This document shows positions 14,814 through 17,093 of a DNA stretch of 64,000 nucleotides, one piece after another. The translations under genes were made by a program, and so were the position numbers. Positions within the stretch are counted from its first letter, which is position 1. Each line of letters opens with the position of its first letter. The DNA is from Streptomyces sp. B3I8. GTDB taxonomy: Bacteria; Actinomycetota; Actinomycetes; Streptomycetales; Streptomycetaceae. The stretch is from assembly GCF_030816915.1 (NCBI RefSeq), contig NZ_JAUSYN010000002.1, positions 1,377,501 to 1,441,500 of the forward strand, written 5' to 3'. The notes beneath the pieces were generated by a model, which saw only the letters and a list, made by a program, of their open reading frames with translations, made no database searches and was not told where the DNA came from.

Positions 14814-17093
14814 ATGGGTGCTGTGTCGGCCGGGCGGGACCGGGGGAACGGGTCCGGGGGGCGTGGCTCCGAAGGGCGTGTGCCCACGGGGCTTGCGTCC
14901 GCGGGGCGCGGCGGGGGTGTGCCGTGGAAGGACGTGCTGCTCACCGCGTTCGCGTGCGTCGGCTGGGCGGTCGTCGGGATGGCGGGCACCGCCGCGCTCG
15001 GGTTGCGCCTGCTCGACGCGGACTCGGCCGGCTCGGGGGGCTCGTTGGCGCCGATGACCGCGGCGGCGGTGGCGCTCGGCGCGGGCGGGGCGGTCCGGCC
15101 CGCCGGTGACCTGTCGGTGTACGGGTTCGAGGGGGCCGAGGCGACGACCGCGCTGAGGTTCACGCCACTGGGCGTCGGGCTGGTGGGCGCGCTGCTGCTG
15201 TCCTGGTTCTTCCTGCGGTCCCTGCGGGCGGCGGGGGTTGCTCCGACCCCGGGTGAACTCCTCGTGCGGGCCGGTGCGGTGGTCGTGCTGTTCGTGGCGG
15301 TGCTCGGCGGGCTCGCCCGGGCGGGACACGACGTCGTCACGCTGGACGGGAGCGCGCTGGGCATCGACTCGCTGCCGGGCATGGGCGGCGGGGCGTCGAA
15401 GGGTTCGGGGTCGGGGGGCCTGGACATTCCCGGGCTCGGGGATCTCGGTGACCTGGGCGGCCTGGGGGATCTCGGCGGCTCGCTGCCGGACCGGCTGGGC
15501 GATCTGGTGCGCGCCAAGGCCGCGGTCGGGTTCACCGTGGACACCGGTCCGACGCTGCTGGGTGGCGCTCTGTGGGCGACGGGAGTGTTACTGCTCGCGC
15601 TGCTCGCCTCCCGCCGGACCCCGCTGCCACGCGGCTGGGATGCCGTCCACCGGGTGGTACGGCCGGCCGTGTCCGCGCTGGTCACGGTGTTGCTGACGGC
15701 GGTGGTGGCGGGCCTCGCGGCGGCGGCGTACGCGGCGATCGGCGACGCGCACCCGAAGCGGATCGCGGGCGCGGCCCTGCTGGCCACGCCCGACGGGGTG
15801 TGGCTGGGCGTGCCGATCGGCCTGTTCGTCCCGTGGGACGGCACGGTCACCGGAGCGCTCGCGGGGCTTCTGCCCGACCCTGTGGACCGCCTGCTGAGCA
15901 CCGGGTCCGGCGAGCCCGTCACCCTGGGGCGGCTCGCCGAACTGGACGGACGGGTGTGGCTGTTGGGGGTGGCGGCGGCGCTGATGATGCTGCTGGCCGG
16001 GGTGTTGACCGCGGTACGGACGCCGGTGCCGTCGCCGGTGCGGGCCGGGTCACCGGTCGGGGTGGCGGCTACGGCATCTGCGGGAGGGGCCGCTGGCGGG
16101 AGCGGCCCGGAAGCGAGTGGCCCCACCGTACGAGGGACGGGTCCGCTCGGCTTCGCGGGGCGCTGCGCGCTGCGGCTCGGCATCGCGACGGCGGTGGCAC
16201 TGCCCCTGCTGGCCTGGTTGACGGAGGTGTCGGTGGACGCCTCGGTGTCGGTGCTCGGCGTCGACGCGTTCGGGGCGGCGCTGGAACTCCACGGGCACCT
16301 CGGCACGGCACTGCTGCTGGGGGCGCTGTGGGGCGCGGGGGCGGGAGTGGTGGGGGCGGCGCTGGCCTGGGTGTGCGGGGCCGCGGGGCGGGGGGCGGTG
16401 CCGGGGACCGCGGGCGTGGTGGGGAATGCGGGCGTGCTGGGGAATGCGGGGACGGTAGGGGCTGTCGGGTCCCCGGGGGTCGTAGAGACGTCCGGGGTGT
16501 CCCGGGGGGCGGTGCCCTCCGAGGTGACCATGCGGCTTCACCAGGCCGAACCGGCCCGGGGCGCCCGACCGACCCGAGGTGCCGAGCCCTCGCGGAAGAC
16601 CGCCGGACCGTATCGGCCGACCGTGCCCCACCGGGCGCCCGACCCCGACACCGATCCGTATGTGCGGGATCTACGGGACCCACGGATGCCGGACGGCGAG
16701 GGAGGCGGGCGGGAACCGGAGGACGCGAGGCCGCCGGGGGCCCCGAGGCCCGGTGGGCAGGAACCGCAGGACGCGAGGCCGCCGGGGACGCGCGAGCGGC
16801 CCGGCCCCGATGTGCACGGGGCGCCCACGATGGTCGGGCCTGTGGCCCCTCCCAAGCCGACCGCGCCGCCACGGTCGAGGGCGCCCCTGCGGCCGACAGT
16901 GCCGCCGCTGCCGCCGGTGGCACCACCGCCACCGCCTCCCCGGACACCACCGTCTCCGCCTCCCCCGACACCACCGTCTCCGCCCGGCCGCCCTCCCGGT
17001 CGTCCTTCCGGTCCGCCCCCGGAGCCACCCCCCCCCCCCCCCCCCCCCCCCCCCCCCCCCGAGCCGCCTCGGAGGCGGCCGGAGCGGAGGTGA
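14814..17093 (+). CDS. Streptophobe family membrane protein with Pro-rich tail
   Basis: A 759-residue protein. Residues about 40 to 540 contain roughly ten hydrophobic segments (KDVLLTAFACVGWAVVGMAG, LVRAGAVVVLFVAVLGGLAR, LLLALLASRR and others) with a Gly/Asp/Leu-rich loop (GLGDLGDLGGLGDLGG) near 210; this pattern fits the streptophobe family, which has no known function. The tail after residue about 560 is a long hydrophilic Pro/Arg-rich segment ending in 11 or more consecutive prolines encoded by a 33-nt C run, then EPPRRRPERR and stop. The ATG follows GGGGGGAT. The gene ends 113 bp before serB. Confidence 0.8.
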   Translation: MGAVSAGRDRGNGSGGRGSEGRVPTGLASAGRGGGVPWKDVLLTAFACVGWAVVGMAGTAALGLRLLDADSAGSGGSLAPMTAAAVALGAGGAVRPAGDLSVYGFEGAEATTALRFTPLGVGLVGALLLSWFFLRSLRAAGVAPTPGELLVRAGAVVVLFVAVLGGLARAGHDVVTLDGSALGIDSLPGMGGGASKGSGSGGLDIPGLGDLGDLGGLGDLGGSLPDRLGDLVRAKAAVGFTVDTGPTLLGGALWATGVLLLALLASRRTPLPRGWDAVHRVVRPAVSALVTVLLTAVVAGLAAAAYAAIGDAHPKRIAGAALLATPDGVWLGVPIGLFVPWDGTVTGALAGLLPDPVDRLLSTGSGEPVTLGRLAELDGRVWLLGVAAALMMLLAGVLTAVRTPVPSPVRAGSPVGVAATASAGGAAGGSGPEASGPTVRGTGPLGFAGRCALRLGIATAVALPLLAWLTEVSVDASVSVLGVDAFGAALELHGHLGTALLLGALWGAGAGVVGAALAWVCGAAGRGAVPGTAGVVGNAGVLGNAGTVGAVGSPGVVETSGVSRGAVPSEVTMRLHQAEPARGARPTRGAEPSRKTAGPYRPTVPHRAPDPDTDPYVRDLRDPRMPDGEGGGREPEDARPPGAPRPGGQEPQDARPPGTRERPGPDVHGAPTMVGPVAPPKPTAPPRSRAPLRPTVPPLPPVAPPPPPPRTPPSPPPPTPPSPPGRPPGRPSGPPPEPPPPPPPPPPPPEPPRRRPERR
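17028..17060 (+). repeat. 33-nt homopolymeric C tract in coding sequence
   Basis: Thirty-three consecutive C residues encode prolines near the end of the streptophobe gene. With this length the frame stops at 17093. Another frame also stops at once (17097), while the third frame is open straight through serB to 18418. A gain of one C (modulo 3) would therefore join the two proteins in frame. Confidence 0.95.

Follow-up and report, generated by a model that had tools for sequence, protein, structure and literature searches.

Streptomyces sp. B3I8 carries 33 consecutive C residues in the last codons of a streptophobe family gene that precedes serB, in the 64,000-nucleotide stretch of DNA analysed here (the window). 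The initial annotation of this locus proposed that slippage in the tract could switch the streptophobe gene into fusion with serB, with tract length acting as a contingency switch. The locus raises the question of whether the tract is a regulatory device, a by-product of replication, a signal in the message or an error of sequencing or assembly.

Results

The tract and the reading frames around it

The tract was borne out by the sequence, both in its length and in its place near the end of the streptophobe gene. It lies inside the Pro-rich tail, flanked by CCA on the 5' side and GAG on the 3' side, in register with the codons, and together with the preceding CCA it encodes 12 consecutive prolines (Table 1). 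The upstream gene is a member of the streptophobe family, with a match to NF038391 of 479.7 bits over residues 38-519 against a curated cut-off of 60. The downstream gene is a member of the SerB family (TIGR00338, 260.8 bits, curated cut-off 144.15), and a weak ACT-domain match below cut-off (NF001220) covers its residues 13-73. The term "streptophobe" was not found in the literature searched.

Reading frames were re-read with 27 to 39 C substituted for the 33. With 27, 30, 33, 36 or 39 C the frame ends at the streptophobe stop at 17093, with 29, 32, 35 or 38 C it ends at a stop at 17097, and with 28, 31, 34 or 37 C it reads through to the serB stop at 18418, giving a predicted fusion of about 1200 aa. 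All three stops are those given by the initial annotation. Its further statement, that slippage by one base makes the fusion, held in its arithmetic, as 34 C does join the two frames, but not in its wording, as only the insertion of one C or the loss of two has this effect, which corresponds to the ribosome shifting by -1. Judged from the frames, none of the three phases alters the serB start or the residues up to the tract, which comprise the membrane part; the phases differ in that the final residues are changed or a fusion is formed. A long simple repeat inside or just upstream of a gene is a criterion for phase-variable genes, and the coding tract is such a repeat.

Table 1. Features of the streptophobe-serB region of the window.
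Feature	Positions	Strand	Basis
Gene of the streptophobe family, 759 aa, with a membrane core and a Pro-rich C-terminal tail	14814..17093	+	NF038391
3' end of the streptophobe gene, coding for the Pro-rich tail	16800..17093	+	homologous tails in relatives
C33 tract, 11 CCC codons, codon-aligned	17028..17060	+	sequence
TGA stop of the streptophobe gene at 33 C	17091..17093	+	matches tail end in S. griseoaurantiacus (L039/L150)
Perfect inverted repeat of 11 bp downstream of the streptophobe stop, possible hairpin	17110..17134	+	z 0.33
Inverted repeat GTCCG-N5-CGGAC in the conserved block	17148..17162	+	conservation
TACGGT, -10-like, 9 nt before the serB ATG	17192..17197	+	conservation
serB, phosphoserine phosphatase, own start codon	17207..18418	+	TIGR00338

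The tract in related strains

For comparison, 80 loci from named genomes were combined with serB-upstream stretches from further Streptomyces genomes, 273 in all. The serB start could be anchored in 226 of them (47 were without the serB N-terminal anchor), and removal of 22 with identical last 150 nt left 204 distinct loci, near-identical ones being kept, of which 194 have at least 1000 nt upstream. A C/G run of at least 20 was present in two of the 204, the window and S. curacoi. The longest run was no more than 6 in 187 loci and 7 to 9 in 13, and the runs of at least 12 measured 33 in the window, 32 in S. curacoi, 13 in L146 and 12 in L084. The S. curacoi run is also carried by L157, which is probably the same genome as L118. 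The comparison with related strains, suggested as a check by the initial annotation, hence gave its proposal little help, with the tract confined to two loci and absent from the nearest relative.

That relative (G223, locus L150) shares 94% identity with the window over the serB region, and its tail is the same as that of S. griseoaurantiacus (L039), with mixed Pro codons and no C/G run above 6. The window tail, ...GPPPEP-P12-EPPRRRPERR followed by the stop, is in the same frame as ...GPPPEPPPEPPPAPPRGRPGRG followed by the stop in the nearest relative, the tail ends being EPPRRRPERR in the window and APPRGRPGRG in S. griseoaurantiacus. Because the tail frame continues as it does in the nearest relative, 33 C preserves the ancestral tail end. 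In S. curacoi (L118, 7052-7310) the 32 C lie in the same streptophobe tail and the ancestral tail frame is broken by one base: the sequence after the run gives ...PPPPPRKPRGRS and a stop only in the neighbouring frame, and the published frame runs on to a stop sharing 4 nt with the serB start.

No second strain of the species was found among the Streptomyces genomes searched. A search for same-species tails with protein region 535-715 retained 0 of 5768 candidates at E 1e-5 and also missed the protein itself, which makes it weak evidence of absence.

Long C/G runs and the assembly of the locus

No other C/G run above 6 is present in the window, where a first-order Markov model of the window predicts about 33 runs of at least 7. 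The whole genome (7.98 Mb) has 187 such runs, 101 forward and 86 reverse, compared with about 4100 when the window expectation is scaled to the genome, an approximately twenty-fold avoidance. Runs of at least 11 number four, with lengths of 33, 19, 14 and 11. The tract is the longest of them, and the remark in the initial annotation that such runs are rare proved well founded for this genome.

Across the genus, a C/G run of at least 16 is found in 185 of 392 Streptomyces genomes, B3I8 counted, and at least one genome has hundreds of them. These numbers favour a serious rival explanation, namely that the tract is an artefact of sequencing or assembly, in whole or in its length, the true tail being a shorter Pro stretch of mixed codons, or a C-run of another length, obscured by poly-G/poly-C errors at a hard, GC-rich place. 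Signal loss in two-colour chemistry, as described in PMC13218037, is one source of poly-G. Contig ends or N-gaps were present at 13 of 30 sampled loci, the sample being limited to 30 of the genus runs of at least 16, and this agrees with the initial warning that such runs are error-prone. The locus itself points in the same direction: 19 of the 80 named-genome loci end in the streptophobe gene or tail before serB, compared with 2 of 80 whose contig stops within the 5 kb preceding the match, and the streptophobe tail is therefore a place that is hard to assemble. Two individual runs also look like assembly faults. The 13 C of L146 (G012) come after the gene, not in a recognisable tail, and near what appears to be an Illumina Nextera adapter, and the 12 G of L084 lie at the junction of a duplicated stretch. 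L079, which has 15 G, runs into dissimilar sequence at the end of its contig.

Several observations, however, count against an artefact. The genome is in two contigs with just four runs of at least 11, and errors of this kind are thus not widespread in it. The tract has neither an N nor a contig end close by, and the sequence on either side of it is homologous tail read in one frame. Moreover, 12 of 25 other genomes of no more than five contigs (G001-G060, counted by hand; one of the 12 is G012) carry at least one run of at least 16, and long runs thus occur in near-complete assemblies as well. On this balance, we judge an artefact to be unlikely, though far from negligible.

Avoidance of C-runs in Pro-rich tails

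Tails were called in 153 of the 204 loci by taking the most Pro-rich, basic ORF end, a procedure that allows miscalls, and 151 of them, with the window and S. curacoi excluded, entered a permutation test. The longest C-run averaged 4.97 in these tails, compared with 6.27 when the Pro codons of each tail were permuted (100 sets, 5.98-6.60) and 7.24 when codons were sampled from the upstream portion of each gene. A C-run of at least 8 was seen in one of the 151 tails, where 44.6 were expected after permutation and 71.3 with upstream-drawn codons, and that one is the miscalled tail of L146. Among the Pro codons, CCT and CCA reach 0.137 and 0.097 in the tails and 0.059 and 0.046 upstream. From these counts, the streptophobe family keeps its tail prolines but places their codons so as to hold nearly all C-runs to 6 or below. 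Avoidance of this kind argues against a tract that is of use to the family, and it marks the 33 C as an escape.

The region between the two genes

Conservation before serB was measured on 203 upstream stretches. An ATG stands at the anchored serB start in 183 of the 203 loci, and it is preceded by a conserved block of about 60 nt (17141-17206 in the window). Within it, TACGGT is conserved at -15 to -10 relative to serB, and may serve as the -10 element of a nearly leaderless serB message. An inverted repeat GTCCG-N4-6-CGGAC lies no more than 75 nt from serB in 161 of the 203 loci, compared with 3 of 1764 control windows further upstream, and the block with its GTCCG-N5-CGGAC is possibly an operator or promoter of serB. 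The longer form TGTCCG-N5-CGGACC occurs at 8 exact places in the genome of B3I8, against 4 for the reversed pattern, and no clear regulon emerged from them. Consensus searches found no intrinsic terminator or sigma-70 promoter in 16500-17400, and there was no Rfam match up to E 1 in 16700-17500. The repeat that follows the streptophobe stop could be a hairpin terminator; a significant hairpin at this place was set aside, as its folding was not better than that of shuffled sequence (z 0.33).

The C content of the gene end allows a further reading, in which the message, rich in C and poor in G, would load Rho and aid termination before serB, the tract being the extreme of a family-wide feature. 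Poly(C) is a classical Rho cofactor. The largest C-over-G excess of any 78-nt plus-strand stretch in the window starts at 16983, with 46 more C than G; the next excess outside the tail is 30 on that strand, and the largest on the other strand is 38, at 16318. A comparison of 148 relatives gave C 0.48 and G 0.36 in the last 90 nt and 0.35 and 0.44, respectively, 300 nt earlier. Nevertheless, Pro codons alone explain the skew, C minus G exceeds 0.2 in just 24% of the 148 relatives (3% at 300 nt earlier), and C-runs are left unused by the relatives. We consider a role in Rho loading most unlikely.

Possible fusion with serB and the proposed contingency switch

Frame tests were carried out on 152 of the 153 called tails, L146 being left out. 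The streptophobe gene and serB are in the same frame at 70 of these loci and shifted at 47 and 35, and the window, L039 and L040 show three different gene-to-gene phases. Over all 152 loci, the serB frame was open back to the tail in 50, compared with 50.6 in shuffled sequence, a count that is unfair because the 70 same-frame loci are closed by the streptophobe stop itself. When the 82 out-of-frame loci were taken alone, 50 had a serB frame free of stops from the tail onwards, against 39 for the third frame and 28.5 for shuffled sequence, so that the serB frame is closed somewhat less often than base composition predicts. The last 66 nt before serB are stop-free in the serB frame at 141 of the 152 loci and in the other frames at 111 and 112; in the intergenic rest outside this block the frames are alike, being open in 89, 79 and 84 of 143. 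We read the excess as a likely consequence of the conserved block rather than of a fused protein, although the latter may still contribute. A homologue search that scored 8000 candidates left 1523 above threshold, and the 120 listed of these were compared with SerB by BLASTP, where none of them matched. A conserved fusion was set aside, given the unconserved phase and an openness excess mainly inside the conserved block, and fused proteins in public data were set aside on the BLASTP result for those 120 homologues.

In the contingency switch as first proposed, tract length would toggle under selection between a free streptophobe protein and a streptophobe-SerB fusion that tethers SerB to the membrane. 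Such a switch could draw on the fusing tract lengths described above, on the high mutability expected of tracts this long and on phase variation at C/G tracts known in other Actinobacteria, as reported in PMC3224659 and PMC11287997. The openness of the serB frame at the out-of-frame loci also leans this way. The remaining evidence does not: long runs are confined to two loci and C-runs are avoided, the phase between the genes varies, the openness excess sits in the 66-nt block, none of the listed homologues matches SerB, and serB retains its own start and conserved upstream block. The proposal therefore found little support, and we hold such a switch to be highly improbable. Contingency genes usually, though not strictly, have a tract that is kept or recurs in orthologues, and here this is seen in 2 of 204 loci. 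Likewise, by the criteria for programmed frameshifting and recoding given in PMC3711429, a shift site would be conserved in many orthologues, and at this locus the long run is again limited to those two and the phase varies. A bet-hedging version, a fusion switch placed at a gene's 3' end, would make each colony a mosaic through one hypermutable C-tract whose indels escape mismatch repair, with about one third of tract lengths tethering the serine-biosynthesis phosphatase SerB to a membrane protein; this is in our opinion a long shot.

Discussion

The tract is a striking oddity and probably unstable, and the comparisons made here suggest a lineage-specific expansion, or in part an artefact, rather than a switch. 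The explanation that we favour, with a confidence slightly better than even, is that CCC codons in the Pro-rich streptophobe tail were expanded by replication slippage in this lineage. A run that had once passed about 6-8 C would be expected to grow quickly, with indels in repeats going uncorrected, and would be tolerated since it alters just a few residues at the protein end, in a tail that is presumably disordered. The expansion is most likely recent and its exact length uncertain, and any culture probably contains a mosaic of tract lengths. The fusion with serB, which arises at every third length, would then most likely be a by-product, the intergenic stretch happening to lack a stop in that frame.

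The repair functions of the genome are relevant to this mechanism. A NucS_C match of 147.3 bits was found and no MutS_V match; the MutS_V search picked up hits in 11 of the 14 genomes used as controls. A review describes NucS pathways as leaving indels uncorrected, and in the same text it is suggested that polymerase proofreading removes most short indels (PMC8228993), for which reason the instability of the tract remains something that we infer. In S. ambofaciens without NucS, the authors of that work found the indel rate not considerably affected (PMC11109965).

Expansion by slippage agrees with a length of exactly 11 codons between CCA and GAG and with a frame that runs on into a tail end of the S. 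griseoaurantiacus type. It also agrees with the lack of the tract in the nearest relative and with the avoidance of C-runs in other tails and in the genome. The independent run of 32 C in S. curacoi shows the Pro tail to be a place where long runs arise, or are assembled. On the other side, the length of 33 comes from a single assembly, the S. curacoi run departs from the ancestral tail frame by a single base, which is what a wrongly assembled length would give, and any run of random length has a one-third chance of being in frame. In addition, the openness of the serB frame (50 of 82 against 28.5) has to be attributed to the conserved block if the fusion is to be a pure by-product.

Homopolymer tracts have been described in other Actinobacteria. 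In Propionibacterium acnes, the dermatan-sulphate-binding protein PPA2127 likewise has a C homopolymer whose length shifts the frame; this surface protein has its tract at the 5' end of the gene, and an altered length with a frameshift is reported for one strain (PMC3224659). In contrast, the B3I8 tract, known from one assembly, is at the 3' end, where no phase disturbs the reading of the core protein. Long G/C tracts are also among the variable homopolymer tracts of Gardnerella, for which slipped-strand mispairing was proposed, and PMC11287997 reports many tracts per genome, variation among them and a position upstream of genes for about 70% of the G/C ones. Unlike Gardnerella, B3I8 has one coding tract of such size in a genome that avoids C/G runs. 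There are also parallels within NF038391, where relatives have the same Pro-rich tail with a basic end but mixed Pro codons in place of the pure C-run. S. curacoi has a run of near-equal length in the same gene and the same tail, differing from B3I8 in that its published frame is one base off the ancestral end.

If the tract is real, it is a natural test of the length that a C-run can reach, and of its rate of change, in a Streptomyces that has a match to NucS and none to MutS. For annotation, the locus calls for caution, as tract lengths in public Streptomyces assemblies are unfit for inferring fusions.

A codon-score test on the flanks of C-runs from the genus separated coding from non-coding sequence poorly, and the window tract itself scored slightly negative. 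Some assemblies contain very many runs of at least 16 (296 and 277 in G178, 95 and 99 in G163), which are probably poly-G artefacts. The 19- and 14-base runs of the B3I8 genome (C2:5817364, L315, and C2:2317135, L314) are apparently intergenic, and the gene just before the 14-base run presumably encodes a trigger-factor-like protein, judged from its sequence.
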